From contig JANJWF010000125.1 in assembly GCA_024709685.1 (NCBI GenBank), positions 1-37,095 on the forward strand: 37,095 bases of DNA, read 5' to 3'. The DNA comes from Thiobacillus sp. GTDB lineage: Bacteria; Pseudomonadota; Gammaproteobacteria; Burkholderiales; Thiobacillaceae. Numbering within the stretch: the first letter of the stretch is position 1; the number at the start of each line of letters is the position of its first letter. Shown piece after piece: positions 4,707 through 24,069 of the stretch. The notes under the pieces are model-generated. The model saw nothing but the letters and a program-made list of their open reading frames with translations. It did not search any database and was not told where the DNA came from. Made by a program: the position numbers and the translations under genes.

Positions 4707-5165
4707 TCACGCTGCAAGCAGGCCGAGTCGGGCATTTGCGCGATCAGGGCCGGGCAGGCAGGACCGTGGCGTCATCGTTGCCATGAGCGGCCGGCCGATC
4801 CCAAGGTCTCCGAGCAGCCGCATGACGTGTCGGCATAACTGGTTGTTCAGTTCGGCGGTGCCTTCGTTGACATCGACCGTGAGGTGCCAGTCGATCCGGC
4901 CGCCGCAGTTGTGTGCGACGACCGGGCCCGAGCAGCCAGGTGCATGAATGACCACAGCCAGGCCAGCGGGCGCGCAAGTGAAGGCTGCTGTTGAATCGAC
5001 GCCGTCAGGATCCGCGGCTTCAACCTCCATGCAACCGTCTGCCAGCAGTCTCGTCCAATCCGCCGCCAATTTCGCCGCAAGGCCATTGCCGCCAGCCAGG
5101 AACAACACATGCAATACCGAACGGCCTTCTCTGTGGCCTGTTTCCTGCGAGCCAATGTGCAGCAT
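4707..5165 (-). CDS. ArsC/LMW-phosphatase-like protein lacking the catalytic CX5R loop (pseudo-enzyme candidate)
   Basis: MLHIGSQETGHREGRSVLHVLFLAGGNGLAAKLAADWTRLL...RIDWHLTVDVNEGTAELNNQLCRHVMRLL; compare ArsC VLFLCTGNSARS...HWGIEDP. Start at ATG 5165 preferred over 5243. Confidence 0.5.
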   Translation of the reverse strand: MLHIGSQETGHREGRSVLHVLFLAGGNGLAAKLAADWTRLLADGCMEVEAADPDGVDSTAAFTCAPAGLAVVIHAPGCSGPVVAHNCGGRIDWHLTVDVNEGTAELNNQLCRHVMRLLGDLGIGRPLMATMTPRSCLPGPDRANARLGLLAA

Positions 5166-5213
5166 CCTCGTGTCCCTCGCGTGTTGTCGAGGCAGCCACC
5201 TTAGCGCGCAGCG

Positions 5214-5231
5214 GTGACAGGTTCGTGACAG
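5214..5231 (-). promoter_or_regulatory. Candidate Pho box (PhoB site), minus orientation
   Basis: Minus strand CTGTCAC-GAAC-CTGTCAC: two 7-bp repeats at 11-bp period, near E. coli Pho-box consensus. Confidence 0.65.
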
Positions 5232-5237
5232 GACACC

Positions 5238-5281
5238 CTGCAATATTCCTGCAATATTTTTTCAATATTTCTGCAATGTTC
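5238..5281 (+). promoter_or_regulatory. Four 11-bp direct repeats upstream of pstS, candidate PhoB array
   Basis: ctgcaatattc / ctgcaatattt / tttcaatattt / ctgcaatgttc at exact 11-bp spacing; followed by -10-like TAGTAT (5288-5293). Confidence 0.6.
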
Positions 5282-5343
5282 GCTGCTTAGTATCTCCGGC
5301 GTCGGCTACTTCTGGTTCGACCAACAAATCTTCGGAGGCTTCT

Positions 5344-6375
5344 ATGTCTGTTTCTAAGCGTGTGTACTTCAAACTGGTTGGCGTGGCCGCCGCCCTGGCC
5401 ATCGGCTCTGCCACCTCGTTTTCTGCACTGGCCGCCGACATCACCGGTGCGGGCGCGACCTTCCCCTATGCCGTCTATACAAAGTGGGCCGAAGCCTACC
5501 AAGTCGCAACCGGCAACAAGGTCAACTACCAGGGCATCGGCTCGTCGGGCGGCATCAAGCAGATCAAGGCCAAGACGGTCGATTTCGGCGGCACCGATGC
5601 CCCACTCAAGGAAGCCGAGCTGGACAAGGCGCATCTGGTGCAGGTGCCGACCGTGATGGGGGGCGTCGCCATCGTCATGAACGTTCCGGGTATCGAATCC
5701 GGCAAGCTCAAGCTGGACGGCGTCACTGCCGCCGACATCTTCCGCGGCGCCATCACCAAGTGGAACGACCCTGCCGTTGCGAAACTGAACCCCGGCCTTG
5801 CGCTGCCGGACTTGGCTATCACCGTCGCGAGTCGTTCGGACGGCTCCGGGACCACCCAGGTTTTCACGAGCTATCTGGCCAAGCAGTCGATGGCGTTCAA
5901 GCGCGACGTCGGCGCGGACAAAACGGTGAACTGGCCTGCCAACGCCGTCGGTGGCAAGGGCAACCCGGGTGTCGCCGCCAACGTGCAGAAGATCAAGGGT
6001 GCGATCGGCTATGTGGATATTGCCGATGCGATGAAGAACAACATGAACTTCATTGCGCTGAAGAACCGTGCCGGCAACTACATCGTGCCGAACCAGGATG
6101 CCGTGGCCGATGCGGCTGCTGGCGCCAACTTCAAGGTTCGCGGCATGGCGCCCGACCTGCTGGACCAGGCGCACAAGAACGCCTGGCCCATCACGACCGC
6201 AACCTATGCGCTGGCGTATGAAAAAGGCGACGATGCCGCCAGGCAGAAGGGCGTGGTGGACTTCTTCACCTGGTCGCTGAACAACGGCCAGAAAATGGCT
6301 GAAGAACTGGGCTTTGTGGCGCTTCCGGCCAACGTCGTGAAAATGGTCGAAGCGGAAATGAAAAACATCAACTGA
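5344..6375 (+). CDS. pstS: Phosphate ABC transporter substrate-binding protein PstS
   Basis: ITGAGATFPYAVYTKWAEAYQVATGNKVNYQGIGSSGGIKQIKAKTVDFGGTDAPL...SRSDGSGTTQVFTSYLAK: classic PstS. Confidence 0.97.
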   Translation: MSVSKRVYFKLVGVAAALAIGSATSFSALAADITGAGATFPYAVYTKWAEAYQVATGNKVNYQGIGSSGGIKQIKAKTVDFGGTDAPLKEAELDKAHLVQVPTVMGGVAIVMNVPGIESGKLKLDGVTAADIFRGAITKWNDPAVAKLNPGLALPDLAITVASRSDGSGTTQVFTSYLAKQSMAFKRDVGADKTVNWPANAVGGKGNPGVAANVQKIKGAIGYVDIADAMKNNMNFIALKNRAGNYIVPNQDAVADAAAGANFKVRGMAPDLLDQAHKNAWPITTATYALAYEKGDDAARQKGVVDFFTWSLNNGQKMAEELGFVALPANVVKMVEAEMKNIN

Positions 6376-17064: not shown

Positions 17065-18597
17065 CTATGCGTCGATGCACACGCGCCCGGCCTGCTCGTC
17101 GGCGCCGAGCGGCTCTTCCGTATCGAGCTGATGCTGCAGCACGCCGAGGTCGGCCTCGGAGGCGTCGCCGCCTGTGCGCGAGCGCTGGACGATGCGTTCG
17201 CGCAGGGTGGCGACCGGGACGGGGAAATCGATGATGCGGAATTCAACCTTGCGCGCCTGCGCGGTTTCGCGCAGCAGGTCGCGTTGCCAGCGCGCGGTGA
17301 AGGTGGCGTCGACGATCACGGGCCAGCCGGCGTCGAGCAGCCGTCCGGCGAGATCGGCGAGGCGGCGGTAGGTGTGCCGGGTGGCGTCGGCGGCATAGAG
17401 CTGCGCGCCGACGCCGGAGCCGCTTTTCGCCAGCGCGTCGAGCCCTGCGATGCGCTTGCGCTCGACGTCGGAGCGTAGGCGGATTGCGCCCGGATCCTGC
17501 ATGAGCGTGCGCGTGACGGTGGTCTTGCCCGAGCCCGACAGGCCGTGGGTGATGTCGAGCCGCACAGGCTGGGGATGCGTCAGCGTGGTCGCAAGATCAA
17601 GCAGGGTGTGCGCTTCGGCGAGCGCCGCGTCGCGGCCGGCGCCGGTGGTCTGCCCGGCGCGCAGCACGGCGACCTTGACGCGCACCATGGCACGATACAC
17701 CGCGTAGAAGCGCAACAGCGCCAGCCCGGCATGATCGCCGGTCGTTTCCAGCCAGAGGTTGAGGAACAGCCACACCCAGTCGGCGTGGCCGCGTTGCAGC
17801 AGGTCCATCCAGCAGAAGGCGATCTCGGACTGGATGTCGATCCAGCGCAGGCCGGGGTTGAACTCGAGACAGTCGAACACCAGCAGCTGGCCGTCGACCC
17901 AGGCGAGGTTGCCGAGGTGCAGGTCGCCGTGGCATTCGCGCACGAAGCCGTCGCGTTTGCGCGCAGCCATCAGCGGCGCGAGGCATGCATGCTCGGCTTC
18001 GCTCCAGGCATGCAGGGCGTCGAGTTGCCGGCGGTCGGCGGGGTCGGCGAGCCAGGGTTCGATGTGCAGGAAATTTTCCGCGACCGGCTGCCAGATCGCC
18101 TTCGGGGACCCCCAGGGGCTGTCTTCCGGTGCGCGGTCGCAATCATGCAGATGGAAGCGGGCGATGGTTGCCGCGATGGTCTCGACCATCTGCGCCGTCA
18201 TGCCCGCCTGGGCGTCGAGCCGGTCGAGCGTGTCGTCCGCCGGAAACTGCCGCATCTTCACCGCGTACTCGAAGGCCTCGCCGGCACCGTTGATGCGCGG
18301 CGCGGACGGGGTGCCGGTGATCGGCACCACGCCGAGATAGATGGCCGGCGCCAGCCGCCGGTTGAGGCGCACCTCTTCTTCGCAGGTCTGCAGGCGTTTG
18401 TCGAGCGTGCTGAAGTCGAGGAACCCAAGATCGAGCGGCTTCTTGATCTTGTATGCGAATTCGCCGGTGAGAAGGAGATAGGAAATGTGGGTTTCGATGA
18501 GGCGGACCGGGCCTGCCGCATGGTCGTAGCAGGCCGGGTCGCGCAGGCTGTGGATCAGTTCCGGCGGCCTGTCGGTGGATTCCACTAGCGGGCTCAT
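17065..18597 (-). CDS. Two-domain kinase: aminoglycoside phosphotransferase-like (COG2187) plus P-loop kinase (COG0645)
   Basis: HISYLLLTGEFAYKIKKPLDLGFLDFSTL; ECHGDLHLGNLAWVDGQLLVFDCLEF; C-terminal ITHGLSGSGKTTVTRTLM Walker A. Confidence 0.9.
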   Translation of the reverse strand: MSPLVESTDRPPELIHSLRDPACYDHAAGPVRLIETHISYLLLTGEFAYKIKKPLDLGFLDFSTLDKRLQTCEEEVRLNRRLAPAIYLGVVPITGTPSAPRINGAGEAFEYAVKMRQFPADDTLDRLDAQAGMTAQMVETIAATIARFHLHDCDRAPEDSPWGSPKAIWQPVAENFLHIEPWLADPADRRQLDALHAWSEAEHACLAPLMAARKRDGFVRECHGDLHLGNLAWVDGQLLVFDCLEFNPGLRWIDIQSEIAFCWMDLLQRGHADWVWLFLNLWLETTGDHAGLALLRFYAVYRAMVRVKVAVLRAGQTTGAGRDAALAEAHTLLDLATTLTHPQPVRLDITHGLSGSGKTTVTRTLMQDPGAIRLRSDVERKRIAGLDALAKSGSGVGAQLYAADATRHTYRRLADLAGRLLDAGWPVIVDATFTARWQRDLLRETAQARKVEFRIIDFPVPVATLRERIVQRSRTGGDASEADLGVLQHQLDTEEPLGADEQAGRVCIDA

Positions 18598-18628
18598 ACG
18601 GCTCGGCCGCCGGAGCAGGGCAGGGCGC

Positions 18629-18934
18629 TTACAGCTGGCGTGCGTAGTCTTCCAGCTGCCTGATGGCGGCGTCGAAGGCGTTGCGCAGCGCAACGTAGGC
18701 ATCCTCGTTTTCCTGCCGGTCCACCACGATCTCCGTTCCGGGCACGCTGAGATCGATGTGGACGTTGAACGGGTTCCCCTGCTGGCGATGCTTGCCGGGC
18801 TGCCCCACCACCACCTTGCAGCCGATCAGGCCCGGAAAATGACGATCCAGCTTCTGGGCCTTTTCCCGAATATGGGTTTCGAGGGCATCCGAGTGCGGGA
18901 TGTCACGGAAGGTGATCTGGAGTGGGATTTGCAT
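18629..18934 (-). CDS. Ribosome hibernation promoting factor-like protein (short HPF/RaiA, S30AE)
   Basis: MQIPLQITFRDIPHSDALETHIREKAQKLDRHFPGLIGCKVVVGQPGKHRQQGNPFNVHIDLSVPGTEIVVDRQENEDAYVALRNAFDAAIRQLEDYARQL. Confidence 0.85.
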   Translation of the reverse strand: MQIPLQITFRDIPHSDALETHIREKAQKLDRHFPGLIGCKVVVGQPGKHRQQGNPFNVHIDLSVPGTEIVVDRQENEDAYVALRNAFDAAIRQLEDYARQL

Positions 18935-18989: not shown

Positions 18990-19388
18990 CTACATTTTCG
19001 GGTGGCCTTCCTGCACATATTCCTTTTCGTGCTTTTCCTGGCAGACGATGCAGCGCTTGGCGGTCGGGTAGGCCTTCAGGCGAGCGAAGCCGATATCGCC
19101 CCCGCAGTCGATGCATACGCCGTATTCCCCATCCTTGATGCGCCGGAACGCGGCCTCGATGTCCCGGATCGCCTGAACCTGACGGTCCAGTCTGGCCACG
19201 TTGAAATCAGCCAGCGCATTGGCCACCGATTCGTCGCCGGTATCGCCGGGCTCGGCGTTGAGCAGGCCGATGCGGTGCTGATCGTCCGAGTCTTCCAGTT
19301 CGTCCCGGACCTCGCGCAACAGCGTCTGATAATCCGTCTTGAGTCTCTTGACGAGCTGATCGAGCTGGGACTGGCTAAGTTCGGGCAT
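18990..19388 (-). CDS. TraR/DksA family zinc-finger protein
   Basis: RIKDGEYGVCIDCGGDIGFARLKAYPTAKRCIVCQEKHEKE: C4 zinc finger after a coiled-coil N-terminus. Confidence 0.92.
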   Translation of the reverse strand: MPELSQSQLDQLVKRLKTDYQTLLREVRDELEDSDDQHRIGLLNAEPGDTGDESVANALADFNVARLDRQVQAIRDIEAAFRRIKDGEYGVCIDCGGDIGFARLKAYPTAKRCIVCQEKHEKEYVQEGHPKM

Positions 19389-19509
19389 CAAGCCTCCTGC
19401 GCAGGTCGGGTTGGATCGAAACCAACCCCCAGAATAGCAACACCCTGAATCAATGGCGAACCGAAGATTGCCGGGCCCGTGCTTCGCTTTCTCCTCAGGC
19501 AGCCCATGC

Positions 19510-20748
19510 CTACGCCTCCACGAACATGTGTCCCGTTTCGAGGCAGTCGCACAACGTGCGATAGACCTGCTGCTGGCGCGCGATCGAACCGTCTTGGGCA
19601 AGCGCCCGCAGGATGCGGCGGGCAAGCGGCCCGTGTTCCAGCATGACGTGCAGGGTCTCGAACCAGAAAGTGGAACGGTTCAGCCCGGTCCGGATGATGA
19701 GGTGCCGCCACAGTTCGCCTGCCCGATAGGATGGATCGGACAGCCCCAGCAGACGCAGATACCCGGCATCGTCGATCACCGCCTGATCGGCGTCGCGGAT
19801 GCAGGCGTGCAGGATCTTTGCCAGGCTGTCGGTACTGATCGCCTGCTGCAGGGCGAGCGACGACCATCTTCCGTCATAGAGCGTCCGGATGACGGCGCTG
19901 GCGGCGGCAGCGATGGCAAGGTCGGCACGCGGGCATTCCTGCACGTCGATCACGCGGATTTCGAGGGCGCTGCGGTCGAAGCGCGGGATCGCGCCGCGGG
20001 CGTTGAGCCATTCGTGACGCAGCAGCCCCTCGGGGTCGAGTGGGGCGATGTCGCGGTACATCGGTGCCAGCACCTGCGTCTCGTACTCGGCACGGCTGCC
20101 GGCCGTATCCGGGATCACCTGGCCGATCACCGAGGGGACGCGCCGGACGGCCGTGCAGTAGCAGGCCATGCGGGTGTCCAGATAGCCGCCCGGCGCGCCG
20201 TCGGCGATCGGCGAACTCGCGGCGATCGCAGGCAGGATGGGCAGCAGCACCCGCACCGCGGCGTGCAGGCGGGCGAACTCGGCGTCGTTGGCGAAGGGCA
20301 GGTTGAGGTGCACGCTCTGCAGGTTGGCCTGGCCGTGCTGCCTGCAGTCGAAGATGCGGTCGTAGGCCTGATAGATGGAGGCCTGGTCGTGGGGCCACAA
20401 ACGGGTTTCGGCGGCGGGATTCATCCACGGGTGCATGCCAGCCGGCATGAGGCAGGCGCCCATGGGCTGCAGCAGGCGATTGATGGCGCCGATTTCGGCC
20501 TGGAAGCCGGCGACGAGCGATTCGAGTGAAGGTTGGGGGCGGGTGTTCTTGAGCTCGACGAGATGCAGCACGATCTCGTTGGACCACCCGAAGCGCCCAC
20601 GCTCGACTTCCGATGCATCGCTTCCCGCTGCCGCCCGCAGCAGGGCGTCGGCGATCGGCGCGACCGCGAGTGTGCGCCGGTCGACGATCATGTATTCGAG
20701 CTCGACGCCGTAGCCCGCGAAAGCATGCAGCGCCCGCGCAGCCGTCAT
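19510..20748 (-). CDS. Glutamate-cysteine ligase family 2 (GCS2)-like carboxylate-amine ligase
   Basis: GYGVELEYMIVDRRTLAVAPIAD...NEIVLHLVELKNTRPQPSL...MPAGMHPWMNP...SVHLNLPF: GCS2 pattern. Confidence 0.88.
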   Translation of the reverse strand: MTAARALHAFAGYGVELEYMIVDRRTLAVAPIADALLRAAAGSDASEVERGRFGWSNEIVLHLVELKNTRPQPSLESLVAGFQAEIGAINRLLQPMGACLMPAGMHPWMNPAAETRLWPHDQASIYQAYDRIFDCRQHGQANLQSVHLNLPFANDAEFARLHAAVRVLLPILPAIAASSPIADGAPGGYLDTRMACYCTAVRRVPSVIGQVIPDTAGSRAEYETQVLAPMYRDIAPLDPEGLLRHEWLNARGAIPRFDRSALEIRVIDVQECPRADLAIAAAASAVIRTLYDGRWSSLALQQAISTDSLAKILHACIRDADQAVIDDAGYLRLLGLSDPSYRAGELWRHLIIRTGLNRSTFWFETLHVMLEHGPLARRILRALAQDGSIARQQQVYRTLCDCLETGHMFVEA

Positions 20749-22214
20749 GCGTTGACCCGCTTTCGCGCCTCGATGCGGCGCACGAACGAGCCAATGATCT
20801 CGCGGTAGAGGGCGTCCTTCAGCACGCCGTCCTCGTTGCCGGCGTCGATATTGGGATTATCGTTGATCTCGATGACATGGCAGCGGCTGCCTACCTGCTT
20901 GATGTCCACGCCGTAGAGGCCGTCGCCGATCAGATTGGCGGCCTTCAGCGCGAGCTTCACCACCTCTTCCGGCGCCTCGGCCACCGCCATGGCCTGGACC
21001 GGGCCTTCTTCGTATCCGTGGCGCCCGGCTTCGCGCTTGACGATCTGCCAGTGATCCTTGGCCATGTAGTACCTGCAGACGAATAGCGGGCGCCGGTCGA
21101 GGATGCCGACGCGCCAGTCGAACTCGGTGGGGAGCCATTCCTGCGCGACGATCAGTTCCGACTTTTGCAGCAATGCGCCGACCTTGGCGGCCAGTTCAGG
21201 CTCCGACTCGAGCCTCGCCACGCCGAGCGAACCCGAGCTGTCCGGCTGCTTCAGCACGCACGGCAGCCCGAGGCCTGGAATGATCTGGTCGAGGTTGCCC
21301 TGGTGCACCATCAGCGTGCGCGGCGCGGGGATGTTGTGGCGGGCGAGCAGTTCGGCGAGATAGACCTTGTTGTTGCAGCGCAGGATGGAATCGGGATCGT
21401 CGATCACCACCAGGCCTTCTGCAGCCGCCCGCCGTGAGAAGCGGTAGGTGTAGTGGTTGGGGTAAGTCGTGTCGCGGATGAACAGCGCGTCGAACTGGGG
21501 TAGCCGGCCCAGATCGGCGCGGGTGATGAATTCAACCGCCAGCCCGACCTCGGTTGCGGCCTTCTCGAATAGCTGCATGGCGCGGGCGTTCGATGGCGGT
21601 TCCGCATCGTCGGGGTTATGCAGGATGGCGAGATCGAAGCGCGGCGCAGGGCGCCTGTGCGCAGGGCGCCGATGGCCCATGAAATACGCGGTGGCGGCTT
21701 CGACCACGAAGTCATGGTGCGGCGGCGGAATGTCGCTGGCGGCAATGGCACGCACGCTGCGAAGATGCCACCTGCCGCAACGACGCTCGAAATGCGCGCG
21801 CAGCAGGGGCGCCTGCAGACGGCTGAAGAGCTGGTGGCTGAGGGCATCGTGGCGGCTCGCCACGTTTCGGCCGAAATAGATACTGAGTTCAAAATCGTCT
21901 GATTTGATGGATGCGAGCGACCTCTGCACCAGCTCGTCGAGGTCCTCGGTGAGCAGCCGCACCATGTTCTGCGACTGCAGGTCCTCCATCGTGCTCACCC
22001 TGGGCAGCGGCTTGTGGCCGCGCGCCTCGGCCAGCAGGGAGACGTAGTAGCCGAGGCTCTGGTAGCGATACGAGCGGCACAGATTGAATGCCTTGACCGA
22101 GTGGTCTTCGCCGAAGGCGGGATCGGTCAGGTAGGCACGTGCCGACACCACGCTCACGCCGGGAATGTCGAGCGGCCAGTCGCGCGGGTTGTCGACGACG
22201 ATGAGGATGCTCAT
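20745..22214 (-). CDS. RimK-like ATP-grasp ligase with RLAN-type N-terminal domain
   Basis: N-terminus MSILIVVDNPRDWPLDIPGVSVVSARAYLTDP...; C-terminal ATP-grasp: LPCVLKQPDSSGSLGVARLES...LIVAQEWLPTEFDWRVGILDRRPLFVCRY...GVDIKQVGSRCHVIEINDNPNIDAGNED. Confidence 0.92.
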   Translation of the reverse strand: MSILIVVDNPRDWPLDIPGVSVVSARAYLTDPAFGEDHSVKAFNLCRSYRYQSLGYYVSLLAEARGHKPLPRVSTMEDLQSQNMVRLLTEDLDELVQRSLASIKSDDFELSIYFGRNVASRHDALSHQLFSRLQAPLLRAHFERRCGRWHLRSVRAIAASDIPPPHHDFVVEAATAYFMGHRRPAHRRPAPRFDLAILHNPDDAEPPSNARAMQLFEKAATEVGLAVEFITRADLGRLPQFDALFIRDTTYPNHYTYRFSRRAAAEGLVVIDDPDSILRCNNKVYLAELLARHNIPAPRTLMVHQGNLDQIIPGLGLPCVLKQPDSSGSLGVARLESEPELAAKVGALLQKSELIVAQEWLPTEFDWRVGILDRRPLFVCRYYMAKDHWQIVKREAGRHGYEEGPVQAMAVAEAPEEVVKLALKAANLIGDGLYGVDIKQVGSRCHVIEINDNPNIDAGNEDGVLKDALYREIIGSFVRRIEARKRVNA

Positions 22215-22942
22215 GGCCCGTCCTTCGGCGCGGCCCGCGGCGGGTAGACCAGCAGCAGATTGGCGTCGTGGGTCACGATGCCGAGCAGGATCGCGCCGAT
22301 CACGCGATCGATACTGACCCAGTATTCATGCGACGGGCTGTAGGGGTGGCGCCAGTAGGGGTCCGCCACCAGCACGCTGTGCTTTGTCCGGTCGTAACCG
22401 GCGATCACGACGAAATGCCCGGCGGGCAGGCCGCGAATGTCGTCCGGCAGATCGTCCGGTCCGTATTCGCGCGCCGCACGATACAGGTAGGTGGAACTCA
22501 GCCCCGTGATGATGGGTTGATTGCGGCGCAGCAGGCCGCGGATCAGCGGGCGCGAGAGGTCGGCCAGACGCAGTCGTCCGCCCAGGCGCAGGAACTCCAG
22601 ATAGCCCTCGGTGACGTGCTGCAGCCTGGCGTCCTGCTTGTGCGTGCGCTGCTGTCGCAGGCGCTCGGCGATGTCTACTCCCGGCGCAAACCAGGTGGGA
22701 TCGAACACCGTCAGGTTGTAGGTGTAGATGGTGGCCTGATAGCCGTGGCGCAGGGCATCGCAGGCCAGGAAAATCGCAAAGGTGCCGCCGTGCGCCAGCC
22801 TGTGGGTGCGATCGATCACCTCCGCAAGCCGCACATCGCCCCCCCAGTAGTTGTAGACGGCCTGCAGGCAGGTGGGGCCGCAGGTCGTCTCGTCCGGTTG
22901 CGGCAGCATCCTGACCGGCAGGCGCAGCTTGACGGGGTGCAT
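22211..22942 (-). CDS. Stand-alone C39-type papain-like cysteine peptidase
   Basis: QPDETTCGPTCLQAVYNYWGGDVRLAEVIDRTHRL...LPAGHFVVIAGYDRTKHSVLVADPYW: Cys, His and Asp of the C39 active site, no ABC transporter fusion. Confidence 0.85.
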   Translation of the reverse strand: MHPVKLRLPVRMLPQPDETTCGPTCLQAVYNYWGGDVRLAEVIDRTHRLAHGGTFAIFLACDALRHGYQATIYTYNLTVFDPTWFAPGVDIAERLRQQRTHKQDARLQHVTEGYLEFLRLGGRLRLADLSRPLIRGLLRRNQPIITGLSSTYLYRAAREYGPDDLPDDIRGLPAGHFVVIAGYDRTKHSVLVADPYWRHPYSPSHEYWVSIDRVIGAILLGIVTHDANLLLVYPPRAAPKDGP

Positions 22943-22992: not shown

Positions 22993-23487
22993 CTAGCGTT
23001 GCCACGTCACGCGCAGCAGGTTCTCCTGTTCGTTGTAGTGGTACTCCAGCTCACCCTGGTAGGCATGATGCAGTGCTTCTCCGATGCCGCGGGCGAGATG
23101 GATATCGGTCGTGGTGATCTGGATACCGTCGTCCTGATCCTCGATCTTCATGATCCGCTTCAGCGGATGCTCGGCCTTGGTCCGGCTTTCCTCGTTCCTG
23201 GCCAACTGCAGCAATTCCTCGCGGTGATCCTTGAAGAACGTCCCGCTCACGGTCACATACCCGGCGGGGTATTCGTCCTGAATGCGGTGGCACGCCGGGC
23301 ACATTTCCTCGTGCGCCTCGGCAGGCCTCGTGAGCCATTGCCAGCGGCCCTCGTGGAAAACGGCGCCACATTGCGGACAAACCGTCGGTTCCGGCAACTT
23401 GTGCGTGACCTTGTAAGCGTCGTGGCGGGATTCCTGAACCAGGCGGTCGCGTCGGACAGGGTGGAAGTCGGTGAACCGGGTCTTCAT
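22993..23487 (-). CDS. BCAM0308-like Zn-ribbon protein
   Basis: MKTRFTDFHPVRRDRLVQESRHDAYKVTHKLPEPTVCPQCGAVFHEGRWQW...EEMCPACHRIQDEYPAGYVTVSG: two CxxC pairs. Confidence 0.7.
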   Translation of the reverse strand: MKTRFTDFHPVRRDRLVQESRHDAYKVTHKLPEPTVCPQCGAVFHEGRWQWLTRPAEAHEEMCPACHRIQDEYPAGYVTVSGTFFKDHREELLQLARNEESRTKAEHPLKRIMKIEDQDDGIQITTTDIHLARGIGEALHHAYQGELEYHYNEQENLLRVTWQR

Positions 23488-23559
23488 GTTGCGCTCCTTC
23501 GGTGATGGCAAAAAGTCGGCTTACAGCCAGTAGCAGGACGCGCGAAGCGTGACGGCGGC

Positions 23560-24069
23560 TCAGCGGGACGGCTTCAGCAGCCTGAGGGTCTCGCGCATGA
23601 ATGCCGGCAGGTCGGCTGGCCGCCGCGAGGTGACCAGCGCGCCATCCACCACCACTTCGCTGTCTTCGTATTCCGCGGCCGCCTGCTGCAGTTCTTCGGC
23701 GACCGAGGGTGAGCAGGTGGCACGCCGGCCGGCCATCACGCCCGCGGTGATCAGGATCTGCGGGCCATGGCAGATGGCGGCAACGGGCTTGCCGGCGCGC
23801 ACGAAGGCCTGGGCGATCGCGATCGCGGCCGCTTCTCTGCGCAGCTTCGAGGGGGCCTTGCCGCCCGGCAGGATGAGAAGGCCGTAGGCTTCGGGATCGA
23901 CGTCGCGCAGTGCGATGTCGGCGACGACCTCGTAGCCGTGCTTGCCGACGATCCTTCCCCTGGCGATCGACGCGACGTCGACCTGCATCCCTTCCTCCTG
24001 CAGCCGGTAGTACGGATACAGCAGTTCGGTGTCCTCGAAATGGTCTGCGCTGACGATCAGTGCTCTCAT
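23560..24069 (-). CDS. DJ-1/PfpI family protein
   Basis: MRALIVSADHFEDTELLYPYYRLQEEGMQVDVAS...GLLILPGGKAPSKLR...GKPVAAICHGPQILITAGVMAGRRATCSPSV: AICHG nucleophile motif. Confidence 0.93.
   Translation of the reverse strand: MRALIVSADHFEDTELLYPYYRLQEEGMQVDVASIARGRIVGKHGYEVVADIALRDVDPEAYGLLILPGGKAPSKLRREAAAIAIAQAFVRAGKPVAAICHGPQILITAGVMAGRRATCSPSVAEELQQAAAEYEDSEVVVDGALVTSRRPADLPAFMRETLRLLKPSR

Follow-up and report, generated by a model that had tools for sequence, protein, structure and literature searches.

Organisation of the locus

The DNA examined here, a stretch of 37,095 nucleotides referred to as the window, is contig 76 (JANJWF010000125.1) of a Thiobacillus sp. metagenome-assembled genome (MAG; GCA_024709685.1) that is 79% complete. 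Between positions 19,510 and 22,942 it carries three consecutive minus-strand genes, encoding a peptidase and two amide-bond-forming ligases, which correspond to most of a four-gene cassette that recurs across bacterial phyla. A preliminary description of this DNA had recognised the three genes as C39, RLAN-type ATP-grasp and GCS2 genes joined by 4-nt ATGA junctions. Pfam returned the same identities (C39_2, 2.9e-12; RLAN, 3.1e-49, together with RimK, 4e-8; GCS2, 3.4e-30), and both overlaps can be read in the DNA. The ATP-grasp gene is single-copy in the genome. The features are as follows:

22211..22942, minus strand: stand-alone C39-like (papain-fold) peptidase, 243 amino acids (Pfam; residues invariant among relatives)
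20745..22214, minus strand: RLAN plus RimK-like ATP-grasp amide ligase, 489 amino acids (Pfam, active site, fold)
19510..20748, minus strand: GCS2-type carboxylate-amine ligase, 412 amino acids (Pfam, active site, fold)
22211..22214, minus strand: ATGA start/stop overlap between the C39 peptidase and ATP-grasp genes (DNA letters), gggccATGAgcatc
20745..20748, minus strand: ATGA start/stop overlap between the ATP-grasp and GCS2 genes (DNA letters), aacgcATGAcggct

Catalytic residues and predicted folds

The ATP-grasp protein scores above the Pfam cut-offs for both of its domains (RLAN, 166.9 bits against 25; RimK-like, 33.5 bits against 21). Its active site is intact, with K283, K322, D366/R368, E449 and N451 kept across diverse relatives and the ATP/Mg residues K283, K322, E449 and N451 invariant. 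The GCS2 domain scores 105.9 bits (cut-off 21), and residues E16, E18, N57, E58, H147 and N149 are invariant in relatives of the protein. Loss of ligand-binding residues from either ligase, which the preliminary description had named as a result that would count against its proposal, was accordingly not observed. In the peptidase, Q15, C21, H176 and D194 are invariant in 28 relatives, representing the oxyanion glutamine and the Cys-His-Asp triad that had been recognised from the single sequence.

AlphaFold models of the ATP-grasp (pLDDT 87.5) and GCS2 (pLDDT 94.4) proteins were compared with known structures using Foldseek. Among the matches listed, RimK, LysX, ArgX and Ddl align with the last ∼250-300 residues of the ATP-grasp (E ∼1e-14), and none of the 50 listed is long enough to span the RLAN region as well. 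The GCS2 fold is nearest to YbdK and plant glutamate-cysteine ligase (E 6e-13). Neither ligase falls within any named equivalog tested: the ATP-grasp scores 25.1 bits where the S6 ligase model NF007764 requires 331, and 13.5 bits where the GAK-system model TIGR04356 requires 300, with no listed match to the NAGGN synthetase model TIGR03103, while GCS2 lies under the NCBIfam cut-offs for glutamate-cysteine ligase, EgtA and YbdK (best score 55.4 bits against 176.4).

Conservation of the gene cassette

A close ATP-grasp is present in 17 of 55 other genomes of the same genus, mostly at 83-86% identity, and in three genomes from other families of the order at 71-75% identity. A scan of named genomes revealed 80 loci at 40-70% ATP-grasp identity, in records assigned to Nitrotoga, Desulfobulbaceae, Planctomycetota-type bacteria, Ignavibacteria, Bacteroidota, Fibrobacter, Legionella, Bdellovibrionales and Uhrbacteria. 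The same one-strand gene order extends from Pseudomonadota to Bacteroidota, Fibrobacterota and Bdellovibrionota, and clustering of neighbouring genes showed that exactly four co-travel across phyla, namely those encoding the C39 peptidase, ATP-grasp, GCS2 and an FGase-family hydrolase (N-formylglutamate amidohydrolase-like, PF05013; 235 amino acids). The last of these, usually located directly after GCS2, had been overlooked in the preliminary description, which was correct as to the triplet.

All four genes lie in order on one strand at 49 of 98 ATP-grasp loci; 11 loci are without C39, six have the triplet without FGase, and nine have ATP-grasp and GCS2 only. Adhaeribacter terrigena (L044) is among the hosts of the complete set. 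ATP-grasp and GCS2 form the most constant pair (75 loci), with C39 and FGase being the dispensable members. The four proteins show correlated pairwise distances, the highest Spearman coefficient (0.77, uncorrected for shared ancestry) being that between GCS2 and ATP-grasp. The grouping of the cassette genes is more than chance. The proposal that the genes constitute one system, for which a neighbourhood search had been suggested and which a lack of co-occurrence in other genomes was expected to undermine, is thus borne out by the fixed order across phyla.

No small open reading frame (ORF) near the cassette is common to loci beyond the genus, and there is no sign there of a dedicated precursor peptide. 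Neighbour clustering likewise revealed no co-travelling transporter, in keeping with the earlier remark that neither a double-glycine precursor nor a transporter was seen nearby.

A role in anti-phage defence was considered and rejected, since PADLOC matched none of six proteins and the ATP-grasp occurs in no phage record. The idea of a mobile cassette was also rejected, with just 11 plasmid records matching the ATP-grasp and one matching GCS2. The sole plasmid record with both GCS2 and FGase (NZ_LR134436.1) is a 9-kb Legionella adelaidensis 'plasmid' that carries ATP-grasp, GCS2, FGase, fur, bamE and dapF, and is probably a piece of chromosome recorded as a plasmid. Separately, the cassette ATP-grasps of a 'Rickettsiales' MAG (L088) and a Marinoscillum isolate (L091) are nearly identical, which likely reflects a misbinned or misnamed record.

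Exchange of GCS2 and GNAT partners

Examination of 138 RLAN ATP-grasp loci revealed GCS2 within 3.5 kb at 77 of them and a GNAT acetyltransferase at 56, with five having neither and none having both; the loci were picked by similarity, so these counts are not prevalences. In a quick tree of the 138 ATP-grasps, one clade (support 100) contains every GCS2 locus together with 15 GNAT loci. GNAT appears in at least three separate places within this clade (Solimonas/Hydrocarboniphaga, a GNAT-RLAN fusion group and locus L037), representing swaps in one direction or the other. At the Solimonas locus L043, GNAT opens with a 4-nt overlap after the ATP-grasp, which is exactly the slot occupied by GCS2 in the window; the GNAT version is also carried by Solimonas soli (L041). 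RLAN ATP-grasps are present in 81 of 398 sampled Pseudomonadota genomes, and 40 further Pseudomonadota RLAN loci, from outside the window's order, comprise 38 with GNAT beside the ATP-grasp, one of the window's kind (L177) and one with neither partner. In many of the 38 the GNAT is fused to the C39-like domain DUF3335, an architecture that Pfam demonstrated for L171 and L197.

The hydrolases differ also between the two kinds of locus. FGase was found in the GCS2 clade only, at no locus beside GNAT, and DUF2817, a family that overlaps the aspartoacylase/desuccinylase family in Pfam, adjoins the RLAN ATP-grasp in six GNAT loci (L106, by Pfam; L107, L110, L179, L194 and L202, by clustering). Loci with neither GCS2 nor GNAT (L071 and L083) were examined, and no functional pointer was found in them. 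Since both GNAT and GCS2 acylate amines, the former from acetyl-CoA and the latter with glutamate activated by ATP, the step that they share is probably N-capping. The preliminary description was right to treat the genes as one system, but had overlooked this exchange, which together with the FGase is the most telling as to the chemistry.

The FGase gene in trans

FGase follows GCS2 at 13 of 14 same-genus loci examined. In the window the triplet is present and FGase is absent from the locus, its usual slot being occupied by a short gap; a cassette-type FGase is encoded elsewhere in the same MAG:

19391..19509, no strand: gap of ∼120 bases between GCS2 and a dksA/traR-type zinc-finger gene (start near 19388), the usual FGase slot
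4978-5724 of locus L129 (contig C61 of the same MAG), minus strand: cassette-type FGase in trans

The C61 protein shares 61-67% identity with the majority of the genus's cassette FGases. It belongs to the clade formed by the order's cassette FGases (support 99) and probably branches immediately outside the group from the genus (support 85). FGase residues C11-E12-H13, H36 and H127 are kept in diverse relatives. On C61 (L129, 4978-8095) the gene comes after same-strand genes for arginine deiminase and carbamate kinase and lies apart from its usual partners, and the assignment of this contig to the window's MAG may be a binning error. Of 21 related genomes without the ATP-grasp, 20 are without FGase and one has a truncated remnant only. 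Given the FGase in trans here, and the lack of an intact FGase in these 21 triplet-less relatives, FGase tracks the triplet even when unlinked.

In the genome with the truncated remnant (G006; locus L131, 9477-16489), the position of the triplet in relatives is taken by sensor-kinase and response-regulator genes, with a BCAM0308-family gene on one side and the FGase remnant on the other; this is apparently an eroded cassette site.

Neighbouring genes

22993..23499, minus strand: BCAM0308-family protein, the usual upstream neighbour within the genus (neighbour clustering)

The BCAM0308-family gene adjoins the cassette in 12 loci of the genus by neighbour clustering and not outside it, and its product is probably context rather than part of the system. 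The family is named after a Burkholderia cenocepacia gene in a low-oxygen-activated region. Low-oxygen regulation of the cassette was considered and dropped, the BCAM0308 neighbour being found in this genus only. A PfpI-family gene (23560-24069) is also often near the cassette within the genus, and an APH-like kinase region fused to an AAA_33 P-loop domain (17065-18702 in the window) recurs near the cassette at several genus loci.

Proposed function and alternatives

FGase and aspartoacylase-type enzymes cleave acyl groups from small N-acyl amino acids. In these systems enzymes of acylating (GNAT or GCS2) and deacylating (FGase or aspartoacylase) types are combined with a constant ATP-grasp and papain-like hydrolase; a capped small peptide is the simplest reading of the arrangement. 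We judge the chances to be about even that the four-gene cassette, of which the window holds the triplet, makes and breaks a small N-capped peptide, and from the comparisons above we infer an order of reactions, with substrates, product and physiological role, as follows. GCS2 would couple glutamate, or a similar acid, through its side-chain carboxyl to an acceptor amine at the expense of ATP, the product being an amino acid with a gamma-glutamyl cap. The free carboxyl of this product would then be activated by the RLAN/RimK ATP-grasp, which would add another amino acid or amine, the kind of step that GshB carries out in glutathione synthesis and RIMKL enzymes in the synthesis of N-acetylaspartylglutamate. 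The C39-like enzyme would take off the residue added by the ATP-grasp, and the FGase-family hydrolase the acyl cap, permitting turnover of the compound. In the sister systems GNAT probably attaches an acetyl cap, which the DUF2817 aspartoacylase-like enzyme may remove.

More tentatively, RLAN ATP-grasp systems in general could form a widespread class devoted to N-capped small peptides, in which the cap is acetyl (added by GNAT and removed by an aspartoacylase-like enzyme) or gamma-glutamyl (added by GCS2 and removed by FGase), with a papain-like enzyme to cleave the peptide bond. The preliminary description had envisaged either a gamma-glutamyl or other peptide metabolite or a protein tag; a gamma-glutamyl-type metabolite is favoured here, and the tag is retained as a rival.

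Several observations weigh against a capped small peptide. Flavobacterial cassettes are without C39, and G036, a 99% complete genome of the genus, has the triplet without FGase, indicating that the hydrolases can be dispensed with in some cases. DUF2817 is found in just six of the 56 GNAT loci. RimI, a protein N-acetyltransferase, is the best-scoring match of the GNATs, a result that fits a protein target; the GCS2 fold is weakly linked to PafA/Dop (E 3.5e-4 and weaker by Foldseek); and a RimK-like ligase could equally modify a protein C-terminus.

The last three points bear on the main rival, reversible protein tagging, in which the ATP-grasp and GCS2 would attach amino acids to the terminus or a side chain of a protein, for removal by the C39-like enzyme and FGase, much as RimK/RimB act on RpsF or PafA/Dop act with Pup. 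The RimI-like GNAT partner and the fold link to PafA/Dop both favour this scheme. However, no target or tag gene and no small protein is linked to the cassette, although a housekeeping protein encoded elsewhere could be the target; the ATP-grasp reaches only ∼25 of the 331 bits set for the S6 ligase equivalog, and FGase and aspartoacylase relatives are generally known to act on small N-acyl amino acids. Protein tagging is judged rather unlikely.

A special case of the small capped peptide would be a gamma-glutamyl peptide that has a thiol or binds metals and is made alongside glutathione, the C39-like enzyme then serving as a transpeptidase of the phytochelatin synthase type. The resemblance of the GCS2 fold to YbdK and plant glutamate-cysteine ligase is consistent with this, as is the sub-threshold match of the peptidase to the phytochelatin synthase profile (17.9 bits, cut-off 24.9). 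Conversely, no metal or redox gene is linked to the cassette across phyla, and canonical gshB is present in all eight genus genomes tested, with or without the cassette; this version is judged improbable. Replacement of glutathione synthesis itself was rejected on the evidence of the same eight genomes, and the cassette product is not glutathione, since the genome has an ordinary glutathione synthase.

Slightly less probable again is a salvage pathway, in which the hydrolases are the purpose of the system, allowing acyl-glutamate or gamma-glutamyl compounds to be taken up and degraded, and the ligases serve detoxification or storage. The FGase family membership, and the position of the C61 FGase after arginine deiminase and carbamate kinase genes, are in line with salvage, but it is the two ligases that are most constantly linked and the hydrolases that are dispensable. 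Finally, the cassette might mature a ribosomal peptide, the ATP-grasp cross-linking it and C39 cutting its leader: ATP-grasp enzymes produce graspetides, and double-glycine leaders are cleaved by ABC-transporter-type C39 peptidases (PMC8939145). Such a role is very improbable here given a 243-residue peptidase unfused to any ABC exporter, an ATP-grasp fold that matches mainly RimK/LysX/Ddl, and neighbourhoods with no conserved transporter or small ORF conserved beyond the genus.

Comparison with known systems

The closest relatives of the cassette are the RLAN/RimK ATP-grasp systems with GNAT, often as a GNAT-DUF3335 fusion, which have in common with it the RLAN-ATP-grasp core and a papain-like peptidase partner; the cassette differs in having GCS2 in place of GNAT, a stand-alone C39_2-type peptidase and an added FGase. 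The association of GNAT with papain-like domains reportedly already features in Pfam or in Iyer et al. 2009. Literature searches on RLAN, DUF3335 and combinations of terms found no direct or functional study of an RLAN product. According to PMC4431377, which cites Iyer et al. 2009, amidoligase operons mix ATP-grasp and COOH-NH2 ligases or GNAT with peptidases, the same mix of ligases or GNAT with peptidases as is seen here, and the four-gene arrangement may already be tabulated in Iyer, Abhiman, Burroughs and Aravind 2009 (doi 10.1039/b917682a). Ligase-peptidase linkage is a known kind of neighbourhood, and the GCS2/GNAT module swap is the main new result. The exchange leads to a specific prediction, that the same kind of amine is acylated, with acetyl or gamma-glutamyl, on a common ATP-grasp product; identification of that product would give a function to RLAN and DUF3335, and to much of the FGase family.

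RimK/RimB and the rlo operon of Pseudomonas aeruginosa likewise pair an ATP-grasp ligase with an antagonistic peptidase, although the peptidase there is an aspartic retropepsin, and RLAN and GCS2 are not described in the excerpted text of that source (PMC12239564). Glutathione synthesis likewise employs a GCS-fold enzyme and then an ATP-grasp (GshB), but the cassette ligases fall below every GshA/GshB equivalog cut-off, hydrolases are linked to them, and an ordinary gshB lies elsewhere in the genome. In the mammalian N-acetylaspartylglutamate (NAAG) cycle, an acyltransferase (NAT8L), a RimK-like ligase (RIMKLA/B), a peptidase (GCPII) and a deacylase (aspartoacylase) act on one capped dipeptide, an arrangement to which the GNAT version of the RLAN systems comes closest. 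Synthesis of NAAG and its breakdown by GCPII have been described (PMC8836185). The likeness is an analogy only, with GCS2 and FGase standing in within the cassette. If the proposal is correct, the N-capped peptides of RLAN systems would be a bacterial counterpart of NAAG and glutathione together.
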